A stretch of 64,000 nucleotides of DNA, taken from NCBI RefSeq assembly GCF_021390675.1, contig NZ_JAJEJV010000004.1, positions 1,674,001-1,738,000 on the forward strand, in the 5' to 3' direction. The position numbers and the translations under genes are program-made. The notes under the pieces were generated by a model. That model had not been told where the DNA came from. It saw only the letters and a list, made by a program, of their open reading frames with translations, and searched no databases. Source of the DNA: Dyella sp. 2HG41-7. GTDB taxonomy: Bacteria; Pseudomonadota; Gammaproteobacteria; Xanthomonadales; Rhodanobacteraceae. Shown here in pieces: positions 43,513 through 63,742 of the stretch; position 1 is the stretch's first letter, and each line of letters begins with the position of its first letter.

Positions 43513-43539
43513 GCCCGCTTTCGAGCCGAAGCAGACAGT
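43513..43539 (+). repeat. palindrome family copy a
   Basis: GCCCGCTTTCGAGCCGAAGC begins this copy, one base after the stop of the preceding gene. It differs from the family consensus at a few positions. Confidence 0.8.
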
Positions 43540-43563
43540 TTGAAATGATATAGGGATAAATCA

Positions 43564-43848
43564 GTGAGTCTTTCGCCACAAGAAAAGGAGCTTCTGCGCC
43601 GGATCGACGAGATCCTTTTCTACGTATGGGATCCGATCGGGGTGGCTCGCGTACCTCAAGCACGCGATGAGTACGAAAACTATGTTCCTCAGATATTTCG
43701 TCGGCTTAAAGCAACCACCGGCGGACAGGATATTGCCGAATACCTCCATTGGTTAAGTACAGAACATATGGGTCTCGAGGCTAATCAGGTGCATGACGCC
43801 GAAGTAGTCAAGTTGCTTCTTCGATGGCGAAATCACCTTGTCCCCTAA
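43564..43848 (+). CDS. hypothetical small protein
   Basis: The 94-residue product (LRRIDEILFYVWDPIGVARVPQARDEYENYVPQIFRRL, then EHMGLE) has a conserved look. I recall this opening in proteins of unknown function scattered across proteobacteria, often near toxin-immunity or cassette regions. GTG 43564 is the start. A palindrome copy precedes it and another follows it. Confidence 0.75.
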   Translation: MSLSPQEKELLRRIDEILFYVWDPIGVARVPQARDEYENYVPQIFRRLKATTGGQDIAEYLHWLSTEHMGLEANQVHDAEVVKLLLRWRNHLVP

Positions 43849-43856
43849 TTTTTCGA

Positions 43857-43884
43857 GATCCGCTTTCGACAAAAGGCGGACGCT
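43857..43884 (+). repeat. palindrome family copy b
   Basis: GATCCGCTTTCGAC, then AAAAGGCGGACGC, nine bases after the stop of the preceding gene. Confidence 0.8.
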
Positions 43885-43921
43885 AATGGCGTGCCAACGC
43901 GCTTAGTTGAAGTGAGGTTCT

Positions 43922-44506
43922 GTGGGAAATTTTCTCTTCTGTGCGTTGGTCGTGTTCGTGCAAATGTTTCTACGGATGCGATTATTGGAGAACATACATG
44001 GCATTGAAGCTGGCTTGGCGAAATTTAGAAAAAACACCAGTCGGTGCGCTGGGTGTGAGAAGTGCAAGCTTGCGTGGTATCTCCTAAGCGCCATTAATCT
44101 CGGTGATCCCTACAAAGTCGTAGAGATAAATAATCTGTTGACTAAGATGGATGTTAATCTTGCTTTGAGCGCGTACCTGAGTGTTTATGTCAGGGAATCA
44201 ATGGCATGGATTGGGGGTGGCCATTGGAGGTTCGATGGTACTGATAATACGCGCGCGACCGATCTGATACGCAGATGGAAATTGCACCTATTGCAACCCT
44301 CCGATCTTGGCGCTTTGCGGACAACATCCGCAAAATTTCCGTGGATGATGGAAATCGTAAGGGCTTCAGTTTTTGAATTGAAAGGCGACTTTGACACTGC
44401 AGTGCAAGACTATCGGCGCGCATACAAACTTATGCCGAAATGGCTGCCAGAGGCAACGACTGTCTTTGAAAAGATGAACGAGCTTGGTCGAATTTCGGCC
44501 AGTTAA
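43922..44506 (+). CDS. hypothetical protein with N-terminal membrane helix
   Basis: The 194-residue product has one N-terminal membrane helix (about 4-20), a Cys-rich CAGCEKCKLAW segment, and a C-terminal TPR-like helix pair (VFELKGDFDTAVQDYRRAYKLMP). No family is recognised. GAGG precedes the GTG start at five bases. Its stop is not followed by a clear palindrome copy. Confidence 0.65.
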   Translation: MGNFLFCALVVFVQMFLRMRLLENIHGIEAGLAKFRKNTSRCAGCEKCKLAWYLLSAINLGDPYKVVEINNLLTKMDVNLALSAYLSVYVRESMAWIGGGHWRFDGTDNTRATDLIRRWKLHLLQPSDLGALRTTSAKFPWMMEIVRASVFELKGDFDTAVQDYRRAYKLMPKWLPEATTVFEKMNELGRISAS

Positions 44507-44605
44507 CGTGATGGCGCCCAGAAGGTTCGTATGAGTAACGCGTTGGTCCAGTCAAAGAAGTACCTGCCGAAAAATAAGTGATCGCTCGTCGTGGGGCATG
44601 ATGTC

Positions 44606-45001
44606 ATGCAAATTGAATTCGAAAAGTTCTACGTGCCGGCTCTCTATGCGACGGTTGGAAGTCTTCTGGCGTTCAACATTTCGGTGATGGCGGGCGGCGC
44701 CTGGACCGCACTATTACCTATTACGATTCAGGCATTGATCATTGTATCCGTCATGACGCGAAGGTCCTGGGCATATATCGTCGTTCGAATCTGGTCGGCG
44801 ATCTGCATCGTCGGGGGAGCCTCGATATGGCTTGCGGTGCTATTGCGTGGAGGCGAGTTCTCCCATTCCGCGTGGTATATGACTTACCAAACACTAGCGC
44901 TTTTGTTGGGCGTCATCTTCTTCAAGTACGCGAAGGCGGTGCTTTCTCAAGAAGTTCGTGTGGATGTATCACCTCAACAGATCGATCAACAAGAGGTCTA
45001 A
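44606..45001 (+). CDS. four-helix membrane protein
   Basis: The 131-residue product has four membrane segments (about 9-26, 30-48, 56-76, 88-106). No family is recognised. ATG 44606 is preferred to GTG 44591. A palindrome copy starts one base after the stop. Confidence 0.65.
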   Translation: MQIEFEKFYVPALYATVGSLLAFNISVMAGGAWTALLPITIQALIIVSVMTRRSWAYIVVRIWSAICIVGGASIWLAVLLRGGEFSHSAWYMTYQTLALLLGVIFFKYAKAVLSQEVRVDVSPQQIDQQEV

Positions 45002-45361
45002 AGTCTGCTTTCGACCAAAAGCGGACGCTACGTACCGAGCTTCAGTGCTTACGTTCCCAACTGTCGATCAAATCGTGGAAGGTAAAAGCCTACTTTAGAA
45101 CGAACGCCACTGTCCGTTGCTACCTTCGATGCTGACAGCTGATTTCGTTGTCATCCACTCAAAAGTTGTCAAAGGCATCGACGGTTCCTTGAAATTTAGC
45201 GAATCATTCTTCTGAGCAATGAGAAATGAGGGTGACGTACGCATCAATTTCGAGAGTGACCTCTACCCACTTTCGCGGCGTGTCCGCTCAGACCGCCATC
45301 ACCGGGTCATAGAGTCAGTTGCCGTGCGCCTATGCCAAATCGCCCTGAGATCGACACCCCT
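45002..45361. other. gap with palindrome copy c
   Basis: Apart from the palindrome at 45003-45030, I see no gene in these 360 bases. The right end contains the terminator region of the leftward cyclase gene. Confidence 0.5.
45003..45030 (+). repeat. palindrome family copy c
   Basis: GTCTGCTTTCGACC, then AAAAGCGGACGCTA, directly after the stop of the membrane protein gene. Confidence 0.8.
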
Positions 45362-46834: not shown

Positions 46835-47177
46835 GGAGGCGGCATTTAGTCCCTGAGTAGCCCTGGGCCACTTTATGACACATCTTCAAAGAATGTCTAA
46901 TGACCTTTTCCGTAGGCGTCTGCGCCGGTCTCGCAGTAACTCGCGCCTCATTTGGAAGGTTATCGGCCTACAGATGCCGCAATCTTGGGCAACTCATAGA
47001 TTTTTGATTTCTTACAGGGATGACGTCCGCTTTCGGCCTAAAACGGATGTTAGAGCAGGGCGATTAGAGATGGGTCATTATGGACAACTGATGCCGGGCA
47101 CAGATACGACCAGCCCGGCTCGGCCTTGCCAGCAACTTCAATCTCCACTAGCTTGCGCCGACCAATGCCATGAGGTG
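46835..47177. other. gap upstream of baeS with palindrome copy d
   Basis: The baeS frame is open here, but no ribosome binding site or homology supports it. The palindrome at 47022-47050 lies inside. The promoters of baeS and of the leftward cyclase should lie here. Confidence 0.5.
47022..47050 (+). repeat. palindrome family copy d
   Basis: GACGTCCGCTTTCGGCC, then TAAAACGGATGTTA, about 130 bases ahead of baeS. Confidence 0.75.
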
Positions 47178-50430: not shown

Positions 50431-50474
50431 TCTATTGCATGGCGCGGCTCGCGTCGAAATTCGGTAATTCACTA

Positions 50475-50502
50475 ACGTCCGCTTCCGACCCGAAGCGGAC
50501 AT
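50475..50502 (+). repeat. palindrome family copy e
   Basis: ACGTCCGCTTCCGACC, then CGAAGCGGACAT, 44 bases after the S41 gene stop. One of the best-preserved copies. Confidence 0.85.
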
Positions 50503-50530
50503 CAAAAGCCAGAGAATCATTGGGGGAGAT

Positions 50531-50797
50531 ATGAGCATTGCGTGTCCATGCTGTGAACATCTAACAATGCCAGATGACGGTTCATTTCCTGGTTCATACG
50601 TCATCTGCCCAGTCTGTTTTTGGGAGGACGACTATGTGCAGCTGAACGACCCTAGTTATGCCGGGGGTGCTAATCGCGTAAGCCTCACTCTGGCACGGTT
50701 GAACTATCGCTCCTTCGGCGCATCAGACGAGCAATCGCGGCCTTATGTTCGCCCGCCCAACATCGGGGAAATGCCCGATAGCATTGGGCAGAAATGA
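50531..50797 (+). CDS. CPCC family cysteine-rich protein
   Basis: The 88-residue product opens CPCCEHLTMPDDGSFPGSYVICPVCFWEDD, the two CxxC/CPCC zinc knuckles of the CPCC family. LARLNYRSFG then follows as usual. These small zinc-binding proteins have no known role and often sit in accessory regions and near immunity genes. GGGGGAG is six bases before the ATG. Confidence 0.9.
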   Translation: MSIACPCCEHLTMPDDGSFPGSYVICPVCFWEDDYVQLNDPSYAGGANRVSLTLARLNYRSFGASDEQSRPYVRPPNIGEMPDSIGQK

Positions 50798-50805
50798 TCG
50801 ATCAA

Positions 50806-50834
50806 ATGTCAGCTTCCGACCTATTGCAGACAGT
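50806..50834 (+). repeat. palindrome family copy f
   Basis: ATGTCAGCTTCCGACC, then TATTGCAGACAGT, eight bases after the CPCC gene stop. This is a degraded copy. Confidence 0.7.
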
Positions 50835-51026
50835 TCTGAACTTCTGAAGACCGTTGAGAAAAGCGGTTCTTGATTCACTCCGGTTCTTAGAGGCGGATCC
50901 TAAGTAGCTCCAAATTTCTAGGATCACGCGGCACGTTCAATGCCCTCAAATCTAAGCTTGACGGGCATCAGGCACCCCTCGAAACTACCGCAGGGATCCA
51001 TGTGTTCGCTTAAAGGGAAACAGGGG

Positions 51027-52787
51027 ATGAATCTGTTGCGTTTTTGCGCCGCAGGAGTCGGCGTGCTTCTGTTGTCGAGCCAAGCACTCGCTGCCGATTG
51101 TCACTTGAAAGATTTCGGTACGTTGCCGGTAGAAATGGTCGATGGACAACCCATTACCATGGTGAGCATAAATGGCGTAGATACCCATTTCATGATTGAC
51201 ACCGGCGCATCTTTGAACACGATGTCACGTGCCAATGCCCTCTCATTAGGGTTAAAGCCACAAGGGCTTGAAGGCGATGTTCGTATGACTGGCGTCGGTG
51301 GAGATGCCAGGGTGCAGCTCGCGCGCGTCAAAAAATTCGGCATTCTTGGCATGACGCTAAATAATGTCGATTTCATGGTTGGCGGTAGCGATACGGGTTA
51401 TGGACTGATCGGCGCTAATTTGCTTTATGTCGCCGACCTGGAAATCGACCTGGGGCACGGAAAAGTAACGCTCTTCAGGCCAGATGGCTGCACCAAGGCA
51501 CCGCTGGCTTACTGGTCCAAGGGTGGTAACTACAACGTCGTAGATTTAGAGCGGTCCTCGGACGAGTCGACTGACAATGAAGCGGTGCTATCGGTAACGA
51601 TCAATGGCAAACAACTGCGCGCGCTGATCGATTCAGGCGCTTCCATGTCGCTTTTGAGTCGCGACGCCGCAAAAACCATCGGCGTCGACCTGCATGGTCC
51701 GGACGCAAAGCCTGGCGAGATCAGCTCAGGCATCGGCTCAAAAGCAGTCAAATCGTGGACTGTCGCCGTCGATTCCTTCTCGATGGGTGGTGAAACGATT
51801 CGACACGCTCAGTTGAACGTGATCGATGGAATGCTTGGAAGTCACGACATTAACATGCTGCTTGGCGCGGATTTCCTCCTCGCCCATCGCGTGTATATCG
51901 CAAGGAGTCAGCACAAGGTCTATTTCACTTATAGCGGCGGGCCCATTTTCGCGATGAGCACCGGTGGCAGCGATCAAGGGATGGCCGGTAGCGGTGCAGG
52001 AGCGCCATTGCAGAACGCGGCGGACTACGCATTACGCGGCGAAGCGTTTCTGTCCCGTGGCGATCCTGGCGGGGCTATAGCGGACTTGGATGAAGCAATT
52101 CGCTTGGTGCCCGATAGATCCGCTTACTTTCTCGCACGTGCGCGCGCCTATGTCGCCAAAAATGAGCTCGATGCCGCATCGGCCGATTTGGACAAATCTG
52201 TAGGCCTGGATTCGAACAGCGTCGATGCGCTGCTGTTGCGCGCGAGCGTTCGCCTTACACACAAAGATAAGGCTGGCGCGATGGCGGACGTCAATGCGGC
52301 GAATGCCCTGACACCTGCGGGATCGCCCAACGCGAACGACATCGCTAGTCTGTACCTCGCACTCGATCAACCCGACTCGGCCTTGCCATTACTGGACGCC
52401 TGGATTCGTGTACATAGCGACGACGTAATGCTTGGTAGCGCACTCAATGCGCGCTGTTGGGCGCGTAGCCTAAACAATCAGTCGCTTGATGATGCTTTGA
52501 GCGACTGTCGGAAAGCCATCAAACGCGACGGCGAAATTCCCGCCTACCTCGAGAGTTTGGGGATGGTGCAACTGCGCTTAGGCAAGTACTCCGAATCGAT
52601 TAGCACTTACGAGACGGCGCTCGCGCAAGGCAGCCAATCCGCGTGGTCGCACTATGGGCTAGGCTTGGCAAAAATTCGCAATGGCCAAAAAGACGCGGGC
52701 ACTGCCGATCTGGCGGCCGCCCGCGCGATCAATCCAAATATCGACGCGCAAGCCGCAAAGTTTGGTTTGACGGCCGCGGGGATGTGA
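51027..52787 (+). CDS. secreted double-retropepsin TPR protein (copy B)
   Basis: A signal peptide ends near residue 23 (SQALAADC). The two retropepsin-like domains have FMIDTGA (Asp58) and ALIDSGA (Asp202), with GLIGANLL and MLLGADFLL as the hydrophobic-hydrophobic-Gly partners. TPRs run from about residue 335 to the end. Layout and much of the sequence match copy A at 24226, including the DTG-then-DSG pattern. AAAGGGA eight bases before ATG 51027 sets the start; ATG 51000 is possible. Confidence 0.85.
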   Translation: MNLLRFCAAGVGVLLLSSQALAADCHLKDFGTLPVEMVDGQPITMVSINGVDTHFMIDTGASLNTMSRANALSLGLKPQGLEGDVRMTGVGGDARVQLARVKKFGILGMTLNNVDFMVGGSDTGYGLIGANLLYVADLEIDLGHGKVTLFRPDGCTKAPLAYWSKGGNYNVVDLERSSDESTDNEAVLSVTINGKQLRALIDSGASMSLLSRDAAKTIGVDLHGPDAKPGEISSGIGSKAVKSWTVAVDSFSMGGETIRHAQLNVIDGMLGSHDINMLLGADFLLAHRVYIARSQHKVYFTYSGGPIFAMSTGGSDQGMAGSGAGAPLQNAADYALRGEAFLSRGDPGGAIADLDEAIRLVPDRSAYFLARARAYVAKNELDAASADLDKSVGLDSNSVDALLLRASVRLTHKDKAGAMADVNAANALTPAGSPNANDIASLYLALDQPDSALPLLDAWIRVHSDDVMLGSALNARCWARSLNNQSLDDALSDCRKAIKRDGEIPAYLESLGMVQLRLGKYSESISTYETALAQGSQSAWSHYGLGLAKIRNGQKDAGTADLAAARAINPNIDAQAAKFGLTAAGM

Positions 52788-52844
52788 ATTTTTTCGCAGA
52801 TGGGATTTACTCAGATTCGATTCCTGTTGACCAATACGTTCGGG

Positions 52845-52872
52845 ATGTCTGCTTTCGACCCGAAGCGGACCA
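52845..52872 (+). repeat. palindrome family copy g
   Basis: ATGTCTGCTTTCGACC, then CGAAGCGGACC, 57 bases after the retropepsin-TPR stop. Confidence 0.85.
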
Positions 52873-52938
52873 TTGCGTTAGCGAATGGACCAACGCGTAC
52901 ATTGACTCTCTAGCGTTCGATTTAGGAAATTCCGCGAC

Positions 52939-53472
52939 ATGGAAAAGCTCTCAGTCTTGACAGGGGACATCACACGTATCGAGGTCGATGCAGTCGTTAA
53001 CGCTGCGAATGAATGGATGCTTGGAGGTGGCGGTGTTGACGGCGCGATTCATGCAGCCGCGGGGCCGGAGCTTCTTGCAGCATGTCGCAACGTTCCAGAA
53101 ATTCGGCCAGGCATTCGGTGCCCGGTTGGGGACGCGCGAATCACTCCTGGATTTCGACTGCCGTGCAAGTTCGTCATTCATACAGTCGGGCCCCGCTGGC
53201 GTGGGGGACTGAAAGGGGAGCCTGAGATGTTGGCGCAGTGCTATCGTTCTTGCCTAACCTTGGCGATTGAAAACAATGTTGGCTCTATTGCGTTTCCCGC
53301 GATAAGTACGGGCGCATTTGCTTATTCAATCGCCGATGCGTGCCGGGTTGCCATCCGTGAGTGCGTTGCGTTCTTAGAAAAATCGCCGTCTCTTGAGCGG
53401 ATCATTTTGGTGGCATTCGATGGGGCGGATACGGTGGCGCTTAAAAAGGCACTCAAGGACGTAGCGCTGTAG
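52939..53472 (+). CDS. macrodomain ADP-ribose hydrolase
   Basis: TGDITRIEVDAVVNAANEWMLGGGGVDGAIHAAAG is the macrodomain nucleotide-binding region, with FPAISTGAFAY as the phosphate loop and HTVGPRW between. The arrangement matches YmdB-type O-acetyl-ADP-ribose deacetylases. It removes acetyl or ADP-ribosyl groups from ADP-ribose compounds or from proteins. At 177 residues it is complete. Confidence 0.93.
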   Translation: MEKLSVLTGDITRIEVDAVVNAANEWMLGGGGVDGAIHAAAGPELLAACRNVPEIRPGIRCPVGDARITPGFRLPCKFVIHTVGPRWRGGLKGEPEMLAQCYRSCLTLAIENNVGSIAFPAISTGAFAYSIADACRVAIRECVAFLEKSPSLERIILVAFDGADTVALKKALKDVAL

Positions 53473-53484
53473 GATGATCGCGTG

Positions 53485-53513: not shown

Positions 53514-53536
53514 GCGGCCGGATGACGGGTAATTCG

Positions 53537-53791: not shown

Positions 53792-53858
53792 TGGAATCGA
53801 TGGATATGCCGTGTGTCGCAACATGTATAACCGGGCGTCGGCGTCCGTATATTCAGTA

Positions 53859-53865
53859 GTTAGGC
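53859..53865. other. GTTAGGC, integron-core-like
   Basis: This 7-mer fits the core-site consensus GTTRRRY and lies 25 bases before the next gene start. GCCTAAC at 54352 is its complement. Seven bases alone are weak evidence. Confidence 0.35.
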
Positions 53866-53889
53866 GGAAGAAAATTAAGGAGTCCCTGT

Positions 53890-54342
53890 ATGCGTATTGG
53901 TCTTGCAACAACGCTGCTTGTTGCCCTGATAGAGTGCTGGATCCCGGCCACCCAGGCTACTGACAGCTTGCCCTGGGCATTCAATGCGCCTTCTGCAGAT
54001 GGCTATTCCATACACCTCACCACAATAGACCCTGCACCTGGCACCCCTTTAGTTCGCGGAAATGTAGTGGTAATCACGGCGTCCGTTACCTATACGCTGA
54101 AAATTGCCAATCATGGCGTTGTAGTTCTCGTTCCGCAGGATGAGAAAAATAGGGCGGTGGCGAATGACGGAAAACAAGTAACTCAAGAGGTCTCCGCTCC
54201 GAGTGGGAGCTTAGTCCTGAAGCAAACCTTGACAGTTCCGCGTGATGCCAAGGAAATTCGTCTCTTTATCCCTTTAGTTCCTGATGGAATTGCAAATACG
54301 ACTGGCGAAATCACCGTCCGCTACCCCGTGGTCAAGAAGTGA
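53890..54342 (+). CDS. secreted hypothetical protein in cassette-like setting
   Basis: A signal peptide ends near residue 24 (TQATD). The 150-residue product is beta-rich (YSIHLTTIDPAPGTPLVRGNVVVITASVTY, then IRLFIPLVPDGIANTTGEITVRYPV), like a small extracellular immunoglobulin-type domain. AAGGAG lies before the ATG. GTTAGGC stands 25 bases before the start and GCCTAAC ten bases after the stop. No family is recognised. Confidence 0.75.
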   Translation: MRIGLATTLLVALIECWIPATQATDSLPWAFNAPSADGYSIHLTTIDPAPGTPLVRGNVVVITASVTYTLKIANHGVVVLVPQDEKNRAVANDGKQVTQEVSAPSGSLVLKQTLTVPRDAKEIRLFIPLVPDGIANTTGEITVRYPVVKK

Positions 54343-54351
54343 AGGGGTGCC

Positions 54352-54398
54352 GCCTAACTATGCGCCCAAGCGGACCTGCGCTCTGCTTAGGTCCGCTT
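54352..54398 (+). other. attC-like half site
   Basis: GCCTAAC begins the sequence, followed by TATGCGCCC and then the perfect arms AAGCGGACCT (54368-54377) and AGGTCCGCTT (54389-54398). This is the order of an integron attC left half. The expected right half ending in GTTRRRY is missing and palindrome copy i overlaps the right end, so it is at best a decayed site. Confidence 0.35.
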
Positions 54399-54416
54399 TC
54401 GACCCGCAGCGGACAT
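54390..54416 (+). repeat. palindrome family copy i
   Basis: GGTCCGCTTTCGACCCGCAG, then CGGACATAG. It overlaps the attC-like half site. Confidence 0.85.
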
Positions 54417-54448
54417 AGTCGCTATTTTTAAAGTAGCAAGGAGCACAG

Positions 54449-55435
54449 ATGATTGAGACGGGCACGAGTCTTGGTATTGAGGCGTTGCGTACGTATTGGG
54501 CTTGCCAGTGCGCCCCGGGCTCTGCTGCTCCGCTACCGCAGGATGTCGTGAAGACATTGCTAGCCGGTCTGCGACTTAATGTGCTGGAAACCCTGCGTTA
54601 TTTGCACCAGGAGCGGCCGAGTTACGCGCAATTCGAAGCCTGGGTATTAGAGCGCAATGGCGACGAATTTAAAGAAGTCTCGCTTAATCGCTTGCGGCGC
54701 GCACTCGCGGGCGAGACTGTCGGCTCCGAAGTTGGCAATCTCAGCTTTGTCGAAGGCCTGAGTGCGGACGACCTTGCACACTGGCATGAGCATGGCTACG
54801 TCATTCTGCGCAACGCGATCAGCGCGGAGGCGGCGGAAACGGCAGAGATGGCCGTCTACGATTTCTTAGAAATGGATCGCGATGACCCGAAGTCCTGGTA
54901 TCGCGAATCGCTGGCCCATTCCATCTGGGTGCCGCTACTGCGGCATCCGGCGCTGGTAGCTAATCGTCGAGCGCCACGTATTCATAAAGCCCATGCCCAA
55001 CTGTGGGGGCAAGAAGATCTTTGGGTAACCATCGACCAAGTCGGATTCAATCCGCCGGAACACGACCACTGGCAGTTTCCCGGACCCCATTTGCACTGGG
55101 ACGCCACGCTCGCCGAGCCGCACTGTTTTGAAGTGCAGGGCATTCTGTATCTCGCCGATGTTGCTGAAGACCAGGGGGCCTTCAGCTGCGTACCTGGATT
55201 TCATCTCACGTTGAAAGAGTGGCTGAAAAGCGTTCCCGAAGGTGTGGACGTACACAGCTATGCGAGGCGTACCTTGACGATGAAACCCGTTGCAGCAAAG
55301 CGCGGCGACATGATTATTTGGCATCACCTACTGCCGCATGGAAGCAGTCCAAACCGCGCGCTACGACCACGCGTCGTGCAATATATGTCGCTGCGGCCCA
55401 CGCGCTTTGCGTACACCGAGGAATGGAAATCTTGA
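54449..55435 (+). CDS. phytanoyl-CoA dioxygenase-like (PhyH) protein
   Basis: The C-terminal two thirds form the double-stranded beta helix. HLHWDATLA gives the iron ligands H216 and D218, LPHGSSPN the distal H297, and RPRVVQYMS the 2-oxoglutarate arginine. About 100 N-terminal residues precede it with no known fold. It probably hydroxylates or halogenates a small molecule using iron and 2-oxoglutarate. Substrate unknown. AAGGAG lies seven bases before the ATG. Confidence 0.85.
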   Translation: MIETGTSLGIEALRTYWACQCAPGSAAPLPQDVVKTLLAGLRLNVLETLRYLHQERPSYAQFEAWVLERNGDEFKEVSLNRLRRALAGETVGSEVGNLSFVEGLSADDLAHWHEHGYVILRNAISAEAAETAEMAVYDFLEMDRDDPKSWYRESLAHSIWVPLLRHPALVANRRAPRIHKAHAQLWGQEDLWVTIDQVGFNPPEHDHWQFPGPHLHWDATLAEPHCFEVQGILYLADVAEDQGAFSCVPGFHLTLKEWLKSVPEGVDVHSYARRTLTMKPVAAKRGDMIIWHHLLPHGSSPNRALRPRVVQYMSLRPTRFAYTEEWKS

Positions 55436-56036: not shown

Positions 56037-56475
56037 TCGTAGGATCTGAGAGCGTCCTGAAGCGGCCATTGAGTGCGGTCGGACCCTGAAGGTGGGTCAC
56101 TGAAGGGGGCGCACTGCATTTGCAGAAGCGGTTATGGAGCCCGATTCAAAAACTGCCGAGTAGTTCTTTGGGTGGTTTTTCGATCAATTAAGCGAATTCC
56201 GCTTTCGACCCAAAGCAGACATTGGTATGGCTCAGCGGCGGCGCTCCTGCTGCTCGTTCAAAACGGTGGCAAGAAGCGCGCCAATAATAGCGATGACTTG
56301 CTCCGAGTACTCGCTCGGGTACTCGTCCAACCAACAGGAAAGAAAATAGGCACGACTGTTAAACCGTCTGTCCACCTGATGCATCTATGTTCGCATTGCC
56401 CTTTATAGGTACTTTCGTGAGGTTAACCTCTCGAACGAATTTGACGTGTTGCTCCTGTCGACAAAGGATGCGTCC
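56037..56475. other. gap with palindrome copy j
   Basis: A 111-codon frame (56073-56408) runs across the palindrome at 56197 and lacks a ribosome binding site, so I reject it. No other gene is supported. Confidence 0.55.
56197..56223 (+). repeat. palindrome family copy j
   Basis: TTCCGCTTTCGACCC, then AAAGCAGACATT, about 160 bases after the previous stop. Confidence 0.8.
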
Positions 56476-57366
56476 ATGTTGGCGAAACGATTCATCCAAG
56501 CCACCCTTTTTTTGTCCTATTTGAGCGCGTCCTTCGCGATAGGCCAAACCATCGACACCAAGGTCGATGTAGGTGGAAATCAATTAAATTTCCACATCGT
56601 GAAAGGGCATGGCACGCCGATCCTGTTTGAAGCGGGTGGCGGCGACGATTCGACGGTTTGGAACGGAATCTTAGTGCCGTTGGCGGATGTCACAAACACC
56701 ACGTTGATTGCCTATGACAGACCGGGGTTCGGAAAGAGCGGATTCGATAGAAACAGGCACGGCATCGTCAACGGTGTTAGCGATCTTGAAAAAGGGCTTA
56801 AGGCGCTTGGCTATGATGGAAACATCATATTAGTAGCGCATTCGTTAGGTGGGCTTTACGCCGAGTTGTATGCCGCGAGACACCCTGACAGGGTGAAATC
56901 GATCGTTTTGATCGATGCGACGGAGAGTTGCTTTTTGACGCCCGAACAGTTGGACATCACCGAGAAAACTTACAAAAACCGAATGGATGATTTCAAGGCC
57001 CATCGACCTGGCGTGTACTATTTGTTGAGCGACTACCGGTCCATGGCGGATGTAATGCGGAAAGTTACATTCCCACGTTCCATTCCGGTGATCGATATCG
57101 TTTCAGAGCATCCTCCTTTCCCGAGCGAGGCTGAAAGAACGCGTTGGGAGCGTTGTCACCAGCAATTCGCGAGCGCCGCCAAAAACCGTGAGGGTATTCT
57201 CGCGGTCGGAACGGGGCATTACATTTTTCATGACAATCCAGCTCTGGTTATCAATGCGATCGTCAAAGCTTATGCCGATACGTTGAACAGCGAGCAACGT
57301 TCATCACTGCTAGAGCGTAGCTTGTCTTTCAACATAAAAGAAACCAACCTGAAGACAAGGCCGTAA
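56476..57366 (+). CDS. secreted alpha/beta hydrolase
   Basis: A signal peptide covers residues 1-24. LVAHSLGGLYAE carries the nucleophile Ser123, and ILFEAGGGDDST and YDRPGFGKSG are the oxyanion-side loops. GTGHYIFHDNP provides the catalytic His. It is an esterase- or lipase-like periplasmic enzyme. AAAGGA before ATG 56476 rejects the longer frame. A palindrome copy starts seven bases after the stop. Confidence 0.85.
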   Translation: MLAKRFIQATLFLSYLSASFAIGQTIDTKVDVGGNQLNFHIVKGHGTPILFEAGGGDDSTVWNGILVPLADVTNTTLIAYDRPGFGKSGFDRNRHGIVNGVSDLEKGLKALGYDGNIILVAHSLGGLYAELYAARHPDRVKSIVLIDATESCFLTPEQLDITEKTYKNRMDDFKAHRPGVYYLLSDYRSMADVMRKVTFPRSIPVIDIVSEHPPFPSEAERTRWERCHQQFASAAKNREGILAVGTGHYIFHDNPALVINAIVKAYADTLNSEQRSSLLERSLSFNIKETNLKTRP

Positions 57367-57373
57367 ACAACCA

Positions 57374-57399
57374 CCCGGTTTCGACTTGAGGCGGACATT
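57374..57399 (+). repeat. palindrome family copy k, degraded
   Basis: CCCGGTTTCGACTTG, then AGGCGGACATT, just after the hydrolase stop. Confidence 0.7.
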
Positions 57400-57440
57400 T
57401 GCGAAGCGAGATTAGGGAAAGCTATCGTAGGCAGGAAGGG

Positions 57441-57468
57441 TGTCCGCTTTCGACCCGAAGCAGCCATT
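57441..57468 (+). repeat. palindrome family copy l
   Basis: TGTCCGCTTTCGACCCG, then AAGCAGCCATT. Copies k and l lie only 41 bases apart. Confidence 0.85.
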
Positions 57469-57619: not shown

Positions 57620-57632
57620 TTTGGGGAGTGGC

Positions 57633-58334
57633 ATGGCGAATTTTGCGATTGATCGATCTCAGCGCGTGGCCGCACGCGTGGCTGGTGCGCTGTATCTGCT
57701 GTTGATGGCATGTGGCGTATTTGGTGAATTCAGCGGTCGCGGCAGTCTGATCGTTGACAATGATCCAGCGAAGACTGCGTCATCGATCCTTAATCACCTG
57801 ACGTTGTTTCGCATCGGAATCGTTAGCGATTTGACGGCATTTGCGGGCGATATCGGTATGGCGGTCGCGCTGTATGTCGTGCTTCGGCCGGTGGGTAGAA
57901 ATCTTGCGTTGCTGGCTGCGTTCTGGCGTGTGGCGGAAGCTTCTGTGTTGGGCGTCATTACGCTCCATAGCCTGACCATGTTGCTGCTGCTGACCGATCC
58001 TCGATATGCGACGGTATTTTCAAGCCAGCAGATACAGAGTCTCGTTTGGCTATTCAACGATACACACGATGCCGGCTACAACCTTGGTGTGATCTTTTTA
58101 TCGTTGGGTTGCATCGTTTTCAGTTGGCTGTTTCTGAAATCTCGTTACATCCCTCGGTTATTGGCTGGGTTCGGCCTATTGAGCTATGCGGTTATGTTTG
58201 TCGGAAGCATTGTGGCCATTGTTTGGCCCGATAATTCGATCGGTTCGAATTTTGATGATCTGGCAGGTATTTATGAAATCACTATCGGCTTGTGGTTGCT
58301 GATTCGTGGCATCAGAGAACCGCGGACTTCCTAA
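57633..58334 (+). CDS. DUF4386 membrane protein
   Basis: The 233-residue protein has about six membrane segments and the DUF4386 pattern (SQRVAARVAGALYLLLMACGVFGEF, then LWLFNDTHDAGYNLGVIFLSLGCIVFSWLF). The family is uncharacterised. GGGGAG five bases before ATG 57633 sets the start over the TTG at 57621. The palindrome just upstream suggests regulation. Confidence 0.85.
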   Translation: MANFAIDRSQRVAARVAGALYLLLMACGVFGEFSGRGSLIVDNDPAKTASSILNHLTLFRIGIVSDLTAFAGDIGMAVALYVVLRPVGRNLALLAAFWRVAEASVLGVITLHSLTMLLLLTDPRYATVFSSQQIQSLVWLFNDTHDAGYNLGVIFLSLGCIVFSWLFLKSRYIPRLLAGFGLLSYAVMFVGSIVAIVWPDNSIGSNFDDLAGIYEITIGLWLLIRGIREPRTS

Positions 58335-58414
58335 CCCAATACAAAAACTGGAATGACTAGCCCGTGCCAGCGTAACGCCTAAAACTCACCAAGCACGACA
58401 ACGGAAGGAACCGC

Positions 58415-59287
58415 ATGAAGATCATCTTACGTCTCGCTCTTCCACTTCTTCTGCTAAGTACAAGCGCTTACGCAATCGTGATACGCCACGATCAGCCGGA
58501 TGCACGCTACCGCATCAGCCCGCAAACCATCCCCTCGCTGGTCGATCTGCCCGACGAAGGTCATGGCACGTTGATTGCGCCACGCTGGGTGATCACTGCG
58601 GCCCATGCCGTGAATATGATGCAGATGATGCCGGAAGAGCACTTCGTGACCATCAACGGAAAACGGCGCGCGGTGAGCCGCATTATTGTTTACCCGGATT
58701 ACCCCGCTGCGCGGGACGCTTGGCAGCAGATGTTCAAGCAGATAAAAACAACCAAGCCCGACGCCTTTATGCATCAATACATGGCCGCGATGGCCGCCAT
58801 GCACGACATTGCACTGCTGGAACTCACCGAGCCCGTCACCGATGTTGCGCCGATGCCGATCGATCGCGGCAACGCCAAGCCCGGCATGTTGAGTACGGTT
58901 TACGGCGCAGGCGCCACGGGCACCGAACTCACGGGCGCTCCGGATAGTGAAAGTCATCGCACTCAACTACGGCGCGCCCAGAATCGCCTGACCCAGACCG
59001 ATGGTTCATGGCTGCGTTACGTATTCGACTGCAGCACTGGCGCCCCGACCCTTAGCGGCGCCACAGCGGGTGGCGATAGCGGCGGTCCAGTCACCATCGA
59101 TGTGGCCGGTCGAACCTATCTGGCTGGGGTCACTCACGGGTTGGATGGGACACCCAGCGAAGTGGAGCGTATCGTGCGACAAATGCAGGACGGTTCATTC
59201 CGCATGGGAGTATGCGGTCAGCGCTTTGCGGCAGCGCGCGTGAGTTTTTATGCGGCGTGGATTGATCAGACCGTTGCCGGACACTGA
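58415..59287 (+). CDS. secreted trypsin-like serine protease
   Basis: A signal peptide ends at residue 20 (SAYAI). The triad is His64 (ITAAHAV), Asp131 (MHDIALLEL) and Ser222 (GGDSGGPVTI), as in S1 proteases. A pair of cysteines (VFDCSTGAP and MGVCGQRF) may pair. The insert between His and Asp is longer than usual, rich in Met and Ala. GGAAGGAA before the ATG supports the start. Confidence 0.93.
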   Translation: MKIILRLALPLLLLSTSAYAIVIRHDQPDARYRISPQTIPSLVDLPDEGHGTLIAPRWVITAAHAVNMMQMMPEEHFVTINGKRRAVSRIIVYPDYPAARDAWQQMFKQIKTTKPDAFMHQYMAAMAAMHDIALLELTEPVTDVAPMPIDRGNAKPGMLSTVYGAGATGTELTGAPDSESHRTQLRRAQNRLTQTDGSWLRYVFDCSTGAPTLSGATAGGDSGGPVTIDVAGRTYLAGVTHGLDGTPSEVERIVRQMQDGSFRMGVCGQRFAAARVSFYAAWIDQTVAGH

Positions 59288-59326
59288 GCTCGGGGCGACT
59301 TGCCTGTGTTATCGCGTGTGGAGTGG

Positions 59327-59356
59327 ATGTCGGCTTTCGAACCAAAAAGGGCATCC
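59327..59356 (+). repeat. palindrome family copy m, degraded
   Basis: ATGTCGGCTTTCGAACC, then AAAAAGGGCATCC, about 40 bases after the protease stop. Confidence 0.7.
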
Positions 59357-59373
59357 ATAGCTGATTGAAAAGA

Positions 59374-59865
59374 ATGGGATATCGACTCGTGCCTGACAAA
59401 CCAACTTCCGAAGATGTCGCACTTTGGCAGAGGCGCTTGGCTTCCCAGGCCAACAATCGGGCATGGACACTTGCAGAAATCCTTCACCGTTCGCCTGAGG
59501 AAGATGAAGAAATGCTGCACGCGGCGCACGCAGCGATGTATTTCTGGAAAATGGTTGGTGAACCGAGCAATCACGCTCATGCGGCGCAGTTACTTGCACA
59601 CGTCTATGCACTGCTCAAGCTCCCCGTGCCGGCAGCGCACTATTTGCGAAAATCATTGCCACATTTCGAACGAGCCGACTGCGCACCGTGGGAAAAGGCG
59701 TTTGCCCATGCCGTTGCGGCCAATGTCGCCTGTGCAGAAGGAGACGCTGCCGTACATGCCAAGCACTATGCGGAGGCACAGGCCGCCGCCGCGCATATCA
59801 CCGACGAAGAAACGCGCGCCATGTTCGCTGCCACGTTACGCGTGGTGCCTGCGCCGAACCCCTAG
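59374..59865 (+). CDS. hypothetical helical (TPR-like) protein
   Basis: The 163-residue product is helical throughout with paired helices (AAMYFWKMVGEPSNHAHAAQLLAHVYALLKL, then AHAVAANVACAEGDAAVHAKHYAEAQ) like short TPRs. No signal peptide. The start is uncertain: ATG 59374 or GTG 59389. No family is recognised. A palindrome copy lies just upstream and another just after its stop. Confidence 0.65.
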   Translation: MGYRLVPDKPTSEDVALWQRRLASQANNRAWTLAEILHRSPEEDEEMLHAAHAAMYFWKMVGEPSNHAHAAQLLAHVYALLKLPVPAAHYLRKSLPHFERADCAPWEKAFAHAVAANVACAEGDAAVHAKHYAEAQAAAAHITDEETRAMFAATLRVVPAPNP

Positions 59866-59890
59866 GCCGGTAGTAAACGTTTATAGCGAG

Positions 59891-59917
59891 TGCCCGCTTT
59901 CGACCCCAAACAGACAT
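59891..59917 (+). repeat. palindrome family copy n
   Basis: TGCCCGCTTTCGACC, then CCAAACAGACAT, 26 bases after the helical protein stop. Confidence 0.75.
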
Positions 59918-59977
59918 AATCTCCGGTAGAACGAACCAGCAGCGACAGCCCGCGCGCGCAAACTCCGGATCAACGCA

Positions 59978-60589
59978 GTGAATCACCGTATCAATACCGT
60001 CATCTTCGATCTTGGCAATGTCCTGATCGGCTGGGATCCGCGTCGCCTCTATCGGACGTTGATCGACGATGAGCAACAGATGGAATGGTTCCTGCGAGAG
60101 GTATGCAACAGCGAGTGGAACGAACAGCAGGATGCGGGGCGCTCATGGGCCGAGGCGACCGCGTTGCTGCGGGGGCGCTTTCCCGAGCATGCCGAGTGGA
60201 TCGATGCTTATCACCTTCAATGGAAGGAAACGCTGCTGGGTCCCATCGAAGAAAGTGTCGCGCTGTTGGCCGAGCTCAAAGCGCGCGGTGTGCGTTTGTT
60301 CGCGCTCACTAACTGGTCGCAGGAAACCTTTCCCATTGCGCAGCAGCTTTATCCGTTTCTGCAGTGGTTTGAGGGCATTGTGGTATCCGGCGAGGAGCGT
60401 TTGATAAAACCCGATCCGCGCATTTTTCTGCGGCTGTTGGAGCGTTACGCGGTCGACCCCTCGTCGGCGCTGTATATCGATGATTCGGCGCGCAATGTGG
60501 CGGCGGCCGAAGCGTTGGGCATGCGTGGATGGTGGTTCAAAGAGCCGCACGGATTGCGTCGCCACTTGATGGAATTGCAGTTGCTGTAG
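59978..60589 (+). CDS. HAD-family phosphatase
   Basis: VIFDLGNVLIGWDP is motif I (the nucleophile Asp), ALTNWSQETF motif II, RLIKPDPRIF motif III with Lys, and LYIDDSARNV motif IV. This is the YihX-like subfamily IA group, about 200 residues, acting on sugar phosphates such as glucose-1-phosphate. GTG 59978 is the start, with a weak ribosome site. Confidence 0.9.
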   Translation: MNHRINTVIFDLGNVLIGWDPRRLYRTLIDDEQQMEWFLREVCNSEWNEQQDAGRSWAEATALLRGRFPEHAEWIDAYHLQWKETLLGPIEESVALLAELKARGVRLFALTNWSQETFPIAQQLYPFLQWFEGIVVSGEERLIKPDPRIFLRLLERYAVDPSSALYIDDSARNVAAAEALGMRGWWFKEPHGLRRHLMELQLL

Positions 60590-60799
60590 GCTGCGGCGCG
60601 ATCTTGCAAAGCGACTTGGCTAATGCCGCAAATGGCTGCGATGTAACGCTGCGTTGAGATGTGCTAAATCTGTCTGCTTTGGACTGAGCGAAAAAGCAGT
60701 GCGAAAAAAGGGCGGGCGTAGTGATGTGCGTTTATGCACTGGCGTCTTTTTTTGCACTCTTTTTATTGAGTATCAGAGGTTTTTTTAGGGGGTCACGTT

Positions 60800-62203
60800 A
60801 TGGCGCTTTTCGTTAAACCAAGCCGAATTGTGTTGGGCGTTTTGTGTCTGACCACTGCCACGGCATCGATCAGCCTTTGGGCCGCCGATACCGCTTCCGA
60901 GCCGATGGCGCCTCAGACAACGGTGACAACGCTTACCAAGCCGGGATTTTTTACGGAACCGGGGATTGCGATCAATCAGCTCGATCCCCGCAACGTCACG
61001 GCGATTTACCAGGACAATGTCCACATCGCTTTCAGCAATGACGCTGGCGCCAAATGGAGTGATGTGCCAAAGGTTGCGCCGCCGGAATGGCGAGTGTCGG
61101 GAGATGTCTCGGTTACCTACGACAACAACGGTCATGCCATCGCCAGTTTTATGGCGTTCAATCGATTGGGCACCGAAGGCTACTGGGCACACAATGCGCC
61201 TGCAGGCGGTCTCTATATCCGCCGCTCACTGGACGGCGGCAAAACCTGGGAGAGTCAGGCGCGCGCCGTCATTGAGCATGTCGGCGACCATCCGCCGCCG
61301 CTATGGGAAGACAAGCCTTACATCGTCGCCGACCAGAGTCGCGGTCCACACGCTGGGAATCTTTATATTGGCTGGACGCGCTGGACGTTGACCGGATCGG
61401 AAATTCTCTTGAGCCGTTCCACGGATGATGGTTTGAGCTGGTCGACACCGATGGAAATCGACGACCACCCCGGATTGCCGCGCGATGACACGGGCGCCAA
61501 TGAGGGATTCTGGGGCGTGGTGGGTGCGGACAGCACGTTTTATGCGGTTTGGGCGGATACGAGCCATATCGCTTTTACGCTCTCCAAAGACGGCGGCCGC
61601 ACTTTCTCCAAAGCGCGCGACGTCATTTCCACGGCGCCAATCATGTACGGCATCGCGGACCTGGATCGCGCCAATGGTTTCCCGCAGCTGGCGATCGATC
61701 CTCGCGCCACGCCCGACGCGCCGCACGGCCGCTTGTACGTGACATGGGCCGACTACCGAAATGGAGGCGTGGATGTTTTTCTCTCCACATCGGTCGACGA
61801 AGGCAATAATTGGACGCCGGCGATACGCGTCAACGACGATCCTATGCACAATGGCGCCGATCATTTCTTCCCTGCGCTGGCCGTCGATCCCATCAACGGC
61901 GATGTTTATGTGTCTTTCTATGATCGCCGCGCCGATCCCCACGAACGTGCCGTTACGGTGACGTTGGCGCGCTCGACAGACCACGGCAATACATTCGTCA
62001 ACTACGCTTGGACCAAGCAGCCCTTCATCATGCGCAATGTCTTTATGGGCGACTACAGCGGCCTGGCGGCGCGCGACGGGCACGTCTACGGCATCTGGAC
62101 AGAGCACGTCGAGACGCCACGCACGTCGGGCAAGCCGGAGGCGAGAGACCCGCATCACGACAACAACACCGTCGTTAATGTGGGTACTGCGATATTTCAT
62201 TGA
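60800..62203 (+). CDS. secreted sialidase-fold (BNR) protein
   Basis: A signal peptide ends near residue 29 (LWAAD). The 467-residue protein has at least six Asp-box blades: SNDAGAKWS, SLDGGKTWE, STDDGLSWS, SKDGGRTFS, SVDEGNNWT and STDHGNTFV. The fold is a six-bladed propeller as in sialidases. I do not see the Arg triad of active sialidases clearly, so it may bind or cut another glycan. AGGGGG before the ATG supports the start. Confidence 0.85.
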   Translation: MALFVKPSRIVLGVLCLTTATASISLWAADTASEPMAPQTTVTTLTKPGFFTEPGIAINQLDPRNVTAIYQDNVHIAFSNDAGAKWSDVPKVAPPEWRVSGDVSVTYDNNGHAIASFMAFNRLGTEGYWAHNAPAGGLYIRRSLDGGKTWESQARAVIEHVGDHPPPLWEDKPYIVADQSRGPHAGNLYIGWTRWTLTGSEILLSRSTDDGLSWSTPMEIDDHPGLPRDDTGANEGFWGVVGADSTFYAVWADTSHIAFTLSKDGGRTFSKARDVISTAPIMYGIADLDRANGFPQLAIDPRATPDAPHGRLYVTWADYRNGGVDVFLSTSVDEGNNWTPAIRVNDDPMHNGADHFFPALAVDPINGDVYVSFYDRRADPHERAVTVTLARSTDHGNTFVNYAWTKQPFIMRNVFMGDYSGLAARDGHVYGIWTEHVETPRTSGKPEARDPHHDNNTVVNVGTAIFH

Positions 62204-62342
62204 CGTGCGGGAAGCGCCAAGCCAGGGAGTTAAATACCCGCGCACAAACCCCTAGATGATCAAGAACAAACGTTGAGAACGGCACGGGTAATAACGCCAA
62301 AATTACGTGGGGTTCTAATTGCTATTGGCTGGATCGCAGTAG

Positions 62343-62390
62343 GGGACGGGGACGCCTAAGTGGGTTTAGCTATCGCCGTCCCTTTCCTTT
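62343..62390 (+). terminator. possible terminator
   Basis: GGGACGG at 62343-62349 can pair with CCGTCCC at 62376-62382, followed by TTTCCTTTT. The loop is long, so this is moderate evidence. Confidence 0.4.
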
Positions 62391-62512
62391 TAAGCAGCTA
62401 CTGCTTATTTAAGGCCTTGATTATCCGCGTCAGTATGTTTCTGGCCCGGTATTCAATGCGGCGCTTCCTGCGGTTAAGCATGAAAATGGATGGCCAAAAT
62501 GGAAAGGCGTAT

Positions 62513-62542
62513 GTGTCCGCTTTCGGCCCAAAGAGCGCAGAT
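62513..62542 (+). repeat. palindrome family copy p, degraded
   Basis: TGTCCGCTTTCGGCCC, then AAAGAGCGCAGATT, about 70 bases ahead of the next gene. Confidence 0.7.
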
Positions 62543-62612
62543 TGCATGTTGCTTGACTAGGCAATTAACTCGGAGTAAGAAGCCGAAAGCCTACTGTCAC
62601 AAGGAAATGGAC

Positions 62613-63122
62613 ATGCGAGCATTACGGCTTCCTACCCTGATCGTCGCGTTGCTAGGTACTTCGATTGCAGTTGCCGATGGCCCGCAAACGCCTGGAACGG
62701 CTTCAGGCAATCTCGAACCGGTGCTCGTGTACGTCAATGCGCAGGGCAAAATTACCGAAGTCATACCGGCCGATCGGCTTTCCCCCGATTTGACACGTCT
62801 GCTGCGTACCAATTTGGAAGAAATGATCCACACCCCTGCGTACGACAAACAGGGCAAGCCGGTGTCCAGCCAGTTCGTTATCAACGTGAGCTTGCAGTCC
62901 CAACCCAATGGTACTGGCGGCTTCGACACTCACTTTGCATATGTATCAGCCAATCCCGTGCCACCCGGTAGATGGTATTGGTCGCACGACGCCAACGGCC
63001 GACTGGGTCTGAGCAATCAGACTAATTTCGCTAGAAACGCGCCGCCAGACATGACGATTCGCGATCAATACGTTATGCCCGGCGGGCAGGGAGGTATGTC
63101 TGTTGGGACCCGTGGGCACTAA
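62613..63122 (+). CDS. secreted hypothetical protein
   Basis: A signal peptide ends near residue 21 (AVADG). The 169-residue product has no recognised domain; it contains VLVYVNAQGKITEVIPADRLSPDLTRLL and a Gly-rich tail. AAGGA seven bases before ATG 62613 sets the start. Confidence 0.7.
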   Translation: MRALRLPTLIVALLGTSIAVADGPQTPGTASGNLEPVLVYVNAQGKITEVIPADRLSPDLTRLLRTNLEEMIHTPAYDKQGKPVSSQFVINVSLQSQPNGTGGFDTHFAYVSANPVPPGRWYWSHDANGRLGLSNQTNFARNAPPDMTIRDQYVMPGGQGGMSVGTRGH

Positions 63123-63173
63123 AGAGAGATGGACTGACTTGCCTTGGCGCCTACGCCAGAGTGCCCCGAAGGC

Positions 63174-63680
63174 ATGTCGTTAGCTACGCGTCTTGCCATC
63201 AATGTGCACAGAGTTGGTTATATATCGCGATGGGCGCTTGGATGGATGCTGCTGATCGCCTGTTTCGGCGCAAGCTGTCATGGTGCGACGGTCGGACCAC
63301 TGTCTCTCGGCAGCGATGTCCGTGTTGGCGAGGTAGCCAAGCATTTCCATAGCCAAAGCGATCACGTGGGGCAGGCATTCTGGTCAGATGTGCCCGTCGT
63401 TTATTTGGATAGCTCCGTCACGGCTCACGTTAGAGTGACGGAGCTCGCGTATATTCAAACCATCGAAATTCAAATGCCCCTCGCCAAGCTGGGCGACGTG
63501 AAGCGATATATCCAGGAACGCTTCGGCATCCAAAAATCCGACTCGACATCGTCGACGGCGCGCGGTTTGGCAGTATGGGACTGTCGAGACAAAGAAACTG
63601 CCATTGGGTTGTTCTCAAAACCAGAGCGCGGAGCGTTGCTACTGGTATTCACATGGGTGCCTTCGCTGAGTCGGAATTGA
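63174..63680 (+). CDS. hypothetical membrane-anchored or secreted protein
   Basis: One hydrophobic segment (about 18-36) precedes a periplasmic part of 130 residues with a Cys-x3-Cys-like AVWDCRDKE and no known domain. ATG 63174 is chosen; upstream in-frame TTG 63144 is possible. It follows the previous gene by 51 bases and may be co-transcribed. Confidence 0.6.
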   Translation: MSLATRLAINVHRVGYISRWALGWMLLIACFGASCHGATVGPLSLGSDVRVGEVAKHFHSQSDHVGQAFWSDVPVVYLDSSVTAHVRVTELAYIQTIEIQMPLAKLGDVKRYIQERFGIQKSDSTSSTARGLAVWDCRDKETAIGLFSKPERGALLLVFTWVPSLSRN

Positions 63681-63712
63681 TTTTTTTTGCACAATTCACA
63701 TTGAAATGAGTA

Positions 63713-63742
63713 AGTGTCTGCGTTCGATCCCAAGCGAACTGT
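63713..63742 (+). repeat. palindrome family copy q, degraded
   Basis: GTGTCTGCGTTCGATCCC, then AAGCGAACTGTT, 32 bases after the previous stop. Confidence 0.6.

Follow-up and report, generated by a model that had tools for sequence, protein, structure and literature searches.

Integrons are regarded as the natural gene-cassette system. Their attC sites, of about 57 bp or more, carry a GTTRRRY box and conserved R and L boxes. Another modular arrangement relies on the pdif site, a site of the 28-bp class made of two arms and a 6-bp centre. The present analysis deals with a stretch of 64,000 nucleotides from the genome of Dyella sp. 2HG41-7 (contig NZ_JAJEJV010000004.1, positions 1,674,001 to 1,738,000, or G000:C4:1674001-1738000), hereafter called the window, whose last third contains a row of genes separated by copies of one 30-bp palindrome. 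In some soil bacteria, rows of small, mostly uncharacterised genes separated by this palindrome appear to exchange single units. The row in the window is probably a partly decayed array of such mobile gene cassettes, which a recombinase acting in trans would move.

Two other groups of elements have to be considered. Modules flanked by XerC/XerD sites are described on Acinetobacter plasmids (PMC7399989). Repetitive extragenic palindromes (REPs) of 20-40 bp tagged by CGTC or GTAG, mostly located behind genes, are the subject of PMC3733652. According to that study, the CGTC repeats have no known transposase and include variants starting with TGTC; they have a stem of 8-9 bp, AT in the first positions, an unpaired tag and a CCA-like tail, and they mostly occur as head-to-head dimers. 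A literature search that left out preprints and most subscription papers gave no published description of the palindrome site or of the arrays studied here.

The palindrome and its copies in the window

A weight-matrix scan of the window detects 16 copies of the palindrome that score 20 bits or more; they lie at 43510-63742, every one on the + strand; one more copy lies immediately past the window end (L007:846). The first 43 kb contain a single weak match of 15 bits, at 10593. With a strict arm pattern, six sites are found in the window and none in 100 shuffles. The first-pass annotation, made from the sequence, had noted about 17 copies between 43.5 and 63.7 kb, oriented as the surrounding genes, with no clear copy in the first 43 kb, and the scan agrees with this description. 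The same annotation had placed most copies within 60 bases of a stop codon. By hand comparison with the list of open reading frames (ORFs), 12 of the 16 copies indeed share the last 2 bases of a co-oriented ORF or start at most 56 bases after its end, the exceptions being those at 47022, which has no co-oriented gene directly upstream, 56194 (157 bp), 57439 (72 bp) and 62512 (308 bp). Because several spacings are large and some copies are degenerate, the region reads as a partly decayed array.

The sequence of the palindrome in the window is AATGTCCGCTTTCGACCC[A/G]AAGCGGACATT, where two 12-bp inverted arms enclose a conserved asymmetric 6-bp centre, CGACCC. Such a 12-6-12 layout with an asymmetric centre has the appearance of the core site of a tyrosine recombinase. 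In a profile of 141 copies, the information content is near zero outside positions 1-30. There are no R and L boxes; as for REPs and their associated RAYT (REP-associated tyrosine transposase) enzymes, the profile has no GTAG tag and no conserved tetranucleotide beside the palindrome. The consensus also differs from attC sites by the absence of a GTTRRRY box. The two arms and the 6-bp centre recall pdif, as do modules of one or few genes and a recombinase that would act in trans. However, the arms of the palindrome are identical inverted repeats, unlike the dif sequence, and the arrays are chromosomal, co-oriented and long. At first pass, the repeat was held to be probably one of the dispersed repeats known from proteobacteria. 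The nearest published family found is that of the CGTC-tagged REPs. The palindromes studied here are also mostly located behind genes and without a known transposase, but they depart from defining features of that family: the array consensus AATGTCCGCTTTCGACCCRAAGCGGACATT pairs through TGTC (with GACA), and its tail is not CCA. As to the arrangement in head-to-head dimers, the picture is mixed: it does not prevail in Rhodanobacteraceae, Caulobacter and sphingomonads, and Lysobacter has doublets about 59 bp apart.

A hairpin following stop codons may also be imagined to act as a transcription terminator or as an mRNA-stabilising structure maintained by selection. The DNA fold is strong (-11.6 kcal/mol, z -7.4) and positioned just after the stops. 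In locus L040, a loose scan gives 16 terminator-like sites where 6.8 are expected; three of the 15 palindromes of this locus pass it in the array direction and one on the other strand. However, no T run is visible in the flanks of the 141 copies, and pairing is not kept by compensatory change. Across 46 copies, no covariation above shuffles is detected, 483 of 500 shuffles pairing at least as well, and the copies therefore have the appearance of a single palindrome's decayed progeny, not of selected hairpins. A role as terminator or stabiliser, which would moreover leave unexplained the unit-wise sharing described below, is highly unlikely.

Units shared between loci and species

Besides the genome of the window (G000), the comparison involved Dyella lipolytica (G001), D. 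dinghuensis (G010), D. nitratireducens (G014), D. tabacisoli (G017), Rhodanobacteraceae ZG21-1 (G034), Rhodanobacter DHG33 (G061), Dyella japonica (G062), Rhodanobacter L36 (G063) and two further members of the genus of the window (G011 and G015). Units are shared singly between loci and species, and most unit ends coincide with palindromes. Pairwise unit comparison, where the alignment had to extend over 60% of the longer unit and overlapping copies that were almost identical had been removed beforehand, lists 31 unit pairs, some of them repeats from overlapping loci. In 28 pairs both flanks are at random identity; the other three come from Lysobacter. Where matches lie inside arrays on both sides (at least 80% identity, at least 200 bp), 30 of the 40 ends of 20 matches are, in both genomes, no more than 25 bp away from the centre of a palindrome (p 1e-24), the chance of finding a match end at a palindrome being 0.083 on one side alone. 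With the worst match per family in 18 independent unit families, 26 of 36 ends are at a palindrome (p 9e-21).

Several cases illustrate this behaviour. ZG21-1 has two copies of one unit at different places (96.8% identity), and one unit is common to DHG33 and G015 (95.6%). Two copies about 98% alike are found within DHG33, one match end not being at a palindrome in both. The relatives of two neighbouring units of G011 are found on separate contigs of G001. In the window, the unit at 43510-43855 has relatives in G011 (75.5%) and in G001 (74.3%), with unrelated neighbours, and the segment 58365-59354 is 88% identical to L058 of D. nitratireducens, with one end at a palindrome in both and the other end not. 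Conserved junctions were considered and rejected: among 27 both-sided matches, 22 are close copies within one locus, three are two records of one Lysobacter genome and two link Lysobacter species. The serial insertion of gene cassettes suggested at first pass is supported by the recurrence of single units across loci and species, homology mostly ending at palindromes. Shared units with unrelated neighbours suggest that units would move one by one between arrays.

Position of the breakpoint

Pairs suitable for locating the breakpoint share at least 110 bp of flank on one side, within 10 bp of the palindrome, and are non-homologous on the other (identity at least 80% or a stricter cut, each site used once). 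The profile obtained locates the break inside the palindrome and not the frequency of breaks there, which the above counts of match ends address. For the 17 pairs sharing the left gene, two of which are from Lysobacter and Caulobacter, the best boundary is after position 18 (2-unit interval 15-18). For the 26 pairs sharing the right gene, it is after position 24 (interval 24-28). With the boundary at either edge of the palindrome, the fit loses 21 to 87 log units. The break thus lies within the palindrome, whose outer left bases travel with the left gene and whose outer right bases travel with the gene on the right. Bases 1-3 agree in 46 of 51 comparisons of palindromes with a common left gene versus 33 of 78 of those with a common right gene; for bases 28-30, the figures are 25 of 51 and 64 of 78, respectively. 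Without the CpG-type positions 7, 19 and 24, the best boundary of the right-gene pairs shifts to 14 and its interval becomes broad and split. These fits do not prove a single exact point of crossover.

The idea that the repeat moves with 3′ ends, put forward at first pass, is not supported as worded since, at either side of a unit, the break occurs within the palindrome. From the upstream copy a gene takes the right end, and from the downstream copy the left part; no whole copy accompanies it as a 3′ tail. Best positions at 18 and 24 of 30 also differ from the crossover of integrons, which occurs near the outer 3′ edge of the site.

Orientation and distribution of the arrays

In the genome of the window, a covariance model built from 46 palindrome copies, drawn from three of its six blocks, was used to score the best 150 first-look candidates. 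It gives 74 matches at E<=0.01, corresponding to 67 distinct sites; six weaker new places (E 0.01-1) fall outside these 67. As counted by hand, 64 of the 67 sites belong to six blocks with one orientation per block, on C4 at 344-347 kb (+), 358-386 kb (-), 654-661 kb (+), 1717-1739 kb (+) and 2289-2295 kb (+), and on C3 at 249-253 kb (-). A plain pattern with at most two mismatches, which depends neither on the origin of the model nor on the limit of 150 candidates, places 20 of 23 occurrences in the same six blocks. The first-pass annotation had called for such a genome-wide search for density and orientation, and had named as adverse an even spread in both orientations with no link to stop codons and no unit-wise change. 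This picture was looked for and is not the one observed: because the sites cluster in six single-orientation blocks, an even two-way spread is refuted, and in 258 units of the relatives with a good ORF the median distance from stop to palindrome is 17 bp, the median distance from palindrome to start being 36 bp.

Palindrome matches occur in 44 of 61 kin genomes, the own genome included, with counts from 0 to 74. Among 250 genomes drawn from the order, 62 have a match at E<=1e-4, under stricter filters and with the scoring of 29 candidates in each. When GTDB contigs are scanned for the exact consensus, 76 stretches are retrieved: 27 in Lysobacter, 8 in Dyella, 5 in Rhodanobacter, 4 in Rhodanobacteraceae ZG21-1, 2 in Pseudoxanthomonas, 1 in Pseudofulvimonas, 8 in Caulobacter, 10 in sphingomonads and 11 in others, mostly metagenome genomes. 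Relatives carry fresher arrays than the genome of the window. Plasmids and phages were rejected as carriers, the palindrome being present in only 6 of 72,556 plasmid records, one copy each, and in none of 50,697 phage records; four stretches are in viral contigs. In five Lysobacter loci (L099, L106, L125, L131 and L146), the palindrome is often a doublet, in which a strong copy and a diverged partner in inverted orientation stand about 59 bp apart and enclose a conserved stretch; the whole element measures about 89 bp.

Within arrays, co-orientation was counted between neighbouring sites of at least 24 bits and within 2.5 kb. The ratio of same to opposite orientation is 353:1 for Rhodanobacteraceae (85 loci), 32:0 for Caulobacter (8 loci) and 16:0 for sphingomonads (10 loci). 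In 271 units of 150-1300 bp, with a median unit length of 536 bp and a median longest ORF of 133 aa, the longest ORF follows the direction of the palindrome in 259. In 40 of 42 loci, the GC content of the array DNA is below that of the DNA around it. A bias with respect to the replication strand, as judged from GC skew, is weak (27 of 42 positive).

These data bear on the possibility that a REP-like repeat inserts behind genes and has no role in moving them, the blocks being islands of acquired genes. The copies, devoid of covariation beyond shuffles, decay like inert inserts, and the Lysobacter form consists largely of doublets, as in REP families. However, independent insertion predicts neither that homology between islands mostly stops at palindromes nor that each outer end of the palindrome remains attached to the gene next to it. 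Moreover, REP clusters are described as alternating in orientation (PMC2817692), unlike the 353:1 co-orientation observed here. Insertion of a passive REP-like repeat is thus improbable.

Search for the recombinase

Candidate enzymes were compared in the array-rich genomes, namely the 10 genomes with at least 32 palindrome matches. The integron integrase was rejected as the mover: TIGR02249 is over the cut-off in two of the 10, G010 and G011 (broken in the latter), and absent from G000. RAYT/Y1 transposases were rejected too, PF01797 being absent from G000 and G011 (74 and 48 palindrome matches, respectively), two of the seven array-rich genomes searched; it is below the cut-off in G015 and G017, and the search left out G028, G033 and G034. 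Serine recombinases are absent from three of the nine array-rich genomes searched. As PF01548 is found in just two of the 10, IS110 is considered as a guest and not as the mover. Elements of the IS110 family use REP and attC palindromes, and a likeness to IS110/IS1111 target sites is visible in genus g14: in G028, a repeated IS110-like element end adjoins GCTTTCGA of the palindrome (L043:1-130, L169:1-134 and L169:8290-8429); by eye, it corresponds to the start of an IS110-type transposase. This genome has a PF01548 match at G028:C12:856. The IS110-like ends, being placed at contig ends, seem to interrupt assemblies within arrays.

Each of the 10 array-rich genomes has two strong PF00589 matches of Xer-like type, presumed to be XerC and XerD. 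XerC/XerD is therefore a common candidate, the only one among the recombinase types searched, and a weak one. As regards the other tyrosine recombinases, neither Xer-like nor IntI, 20 of 37 matches were compared (all three of G000, both of G033, none of G028 and one of the seven of G034). A dedicated enzyme common to the array-rich genomes was rejected, the three of G000 and the two of G033 having no close relative in common (<=28% identity); thus, no single type among those compared is common to all. None of the five PF00589 matches of the genome of the window is within 100 kb of any array block. In relatives, three such matches are about 8 kb or less from palindromes (G034:C15:314585, G010:C6:58046 and the broken IntI at G011:C14:45159). 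The tyrosine recombinase of G010 (L194, G010:C6:57000-59800) and another one, in L199 (G014:C2:1249800-1252600), are 61% identical to each other and located about 8 and 13 kb from arrays; no such close relative was seen among the three compared from the genome of the window. No gene family recurring beside arrays stood out, the largest of the clusters, which are unannotated, being present in 17 of 156 loci.

The distribution of integrases has to be related to the resemblance between these arrays and integrons or CALINs (clusters of attC sites lacking an integron integrase). In both cases, rows of co-oriented, mostly single-gene units with mostly uncharacterised products have borders able to form hairpins and are shared singly between genomes. 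The palindromes might thus be misread attC sites of a decayed integron or CALIN. An integron integrase exceeds the cut-off in 28 of 61 genomes, and the broken integrase of G011 (C14:45159) stands among three palindromes. However, no integron integrase reaches this cut-off in eight of the 10 array-rich genomes, conservation is limited to 30 bp without conserved flanking boxes, and breakpoints are interior instead of being at the outer edge. The palindrome arrays also differ from integrons in that 39 of them gave no sign of an entry platform. In G010, the integron locus, inspected by eye, has sites of another appearance and one isolated palindrome. That the arrays are decayed integrons is hardly credible. 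The palindrome arrays work like integron cassette arrays but lack the integrase, the attC boxes and the edge crossover of these. In G010, which also has palindrome arrays, an integron integrase followed by ordinary-looking attC-bounded cassettes, as judged by eye, is found on C9 (L156:12651-15500).

A possible mechanism and the points to be weighed

In a typical unit, a short gene has its start a little behind one palindrome and its stop a little ahead of the following one. The following scheme may be envisaged. Two co-oriented palindromes would recombine centrally, thereby releasing a circle with one palindrome. The circle would re-enter at any other palindrome, in the same orientation, and arrays would therefore be co-oriented. 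A candidate site-specific recombinase, encoded elsewhere, would act in trans. The inverted arms, the asymmetric centre, the strict co-orientation and the interior breakpoints fit conservative site-specific recombination of circles. It may further be proposed, though tentatively and with slightly less than even confidence, that a second natural gene-cassette capture system exists independently of integrons. It would use a 30-bp symmetric site with an asymmetric centre and a candidate recombinase in trans, possibly the housekeeping Xer, and would build and reshuffle chromosomal arrays of small, mostly uncharacterised genes in Rhodanobacteraceae, perhaps with a related form in Lysobacter, Caulobacter, sphingomonads and others.

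A number of observations weigh against the cassette scheme. In Lysobacter, neighbouring palindromes are mostly opposite (25 same, 53 opposite). In the alpha-proteobacterial arrays, the longest ORF is in the palindrome direction in just 15 of 32 units, a test that the high GC of this set may weaken. A gradient of freshness was looked for in 39 arrays and none was found, so that there is no sign of an entry end. No recombinase is consistently found beside arrays in the genome of the window and its relatives. Ten of the 40 match ends are off-palindrome in at least one genome, and only 11 of the 20 matches have both ends at palindromes. No circle, excision or empty site was seen, a search for insertions giving one match, in Lysobacter. 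Finally, the optima of left- and right-gene pairs (18 versus 24) differ, and right-gene pairs are better described by a uniform breakpoint, by 3.4 log units (7.4 without the CpG-type positions).

This last result is what would be expected if the palindromes were only short shared homologies. Genes would then be moved by ordinary homologous (RecA) recombination, following natural transformation for example, and crossovers could occur at any point of the 30 bp. Breakpoints inside the palindrome and the failure to find a dedicated recombinase agree with such a process. However, left-gene pairs favour a single point, a fixed position being better than a uniform breakpoint by 4.0 log units. In addition, a stretch of 30 bp, often imperfectly matched, comes close to the shortest that RecA can use, and RecA alone leaves unexplained why palindromes follow nearly every gene of a block and almost none elsewhere. 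A purely RecA-dependent exchange is unlikely, while deserving to be taken seriously, and a cassette array served by a recombinase in trans is still preferred.

Gene content of the window and of other arrays

In the window, palindrome copy 1 (43510..43539) overlaps the stop of the ORF at 43245-43511. It is followed by a single-gene unit encoding 94 aa with no Pfam family (43564..43848), copy 2 (43855..43884), a two-ORF unit (43922..45001) encoding proteins of 194 aa, with a TPR match below the cut-off, and 136 aa, without family, and copy 3 (45000..45029). Copy 4 lies at 47022..47051, and copy 5 (50474..50503) comes after a peptidase S41 gene (49336-50430). A single gene for a Cys_rich_CPCC protein of 88 aa (50531..50797) precedes copy 6 (50805..50834), a gene for an aspartyl protease with TPR repeats (50940..52787) precedes copy 7 (52844..52873), and a single macro-domain gene (52939..53472) precedes copy 8 (53484..53513). 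Two small ORFs of 80 and 150 aa, with no Pfam family (53522..54342), lead to copy 9 (54388..54417), whose right-hand gene is common to L151 (84.5%) and whose left side is not. A gene for a PhyH-family dioxygenase (54449..55435) lies before copy 10 (56194..56223), and an alpha/beta hydrolase gene (56446..57366) before the degenerate copy 11 (57370..57399), which forms a close pair with copy 12 (57439..57468). Then come DUF4386 and trypsin-like genes (57621..59287), copy 13 (59326..59355), a single gene for 166 aa without Pfam family (59365..59865), copy 14 (59889..59918), HAD hydrolase and BNR-repeat genes (59978..62203), degenerate copy 15 (62512..62541), two ORFs without Pfam family (62553..63680) and degenerate copy 16 (63713..63742). 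All these copies and units are on the + strand. The genes, described as unusually small at first pass, are only partly so in the window (80 to 615 aa); the description holds for the arrays of relatives.

Four ORFs that run through palindromes are probably spurious, at 49840-50604 (-), 52643-52960 (+), 53322-53636 (-) and 59266-59580 (-). They give peptides of the GRKRT, FRPEAD and GSKADI types, which, when present in annotated proteins, may flag palindrome arrays in other genomes. Beside the window array, a C4 antisense RNA with its target, a phage-type immunity RNA of Rfam, is found at 42408-42597 (-), and another at L057:7850-8028 (+), within the span of a D. lipolytica array.

In arrays more generally, 150 unit proteins, chosen from 234 passing filters of length and position, match 51 Pfam families at E<=0.001, the commonest of which is found in four proteins. 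Four families of defence models are represented by one member each (best E 3.9e-11). Inside an array unit, the ORF at L169:2475-3644 resembles by eye an IS30-type transposase. A conserved stretch of at most 700 bp, in which a small ORF without known family lies, is found repeatedly in the vicinity of arrays and of one integron integrase locus (L003:44-369, L006:1804-2485, L008:6076-6417, L049:14792-15142, L055:19702-20000, L059:6481-7185, L158:1001-1696, L183:1506-2186 and L061:752-1090).

Significance

The site, its orientation and the interior breakpoint provide a precise sequence handle for finding the enzyme. If the proposed system is real, such arrays could escape searches based on attC and IntI. 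A separate system with a simpler site would mean that cassette arrays arose more than once, and it would help to explain the pool of small orphan genes in soil bacteria.

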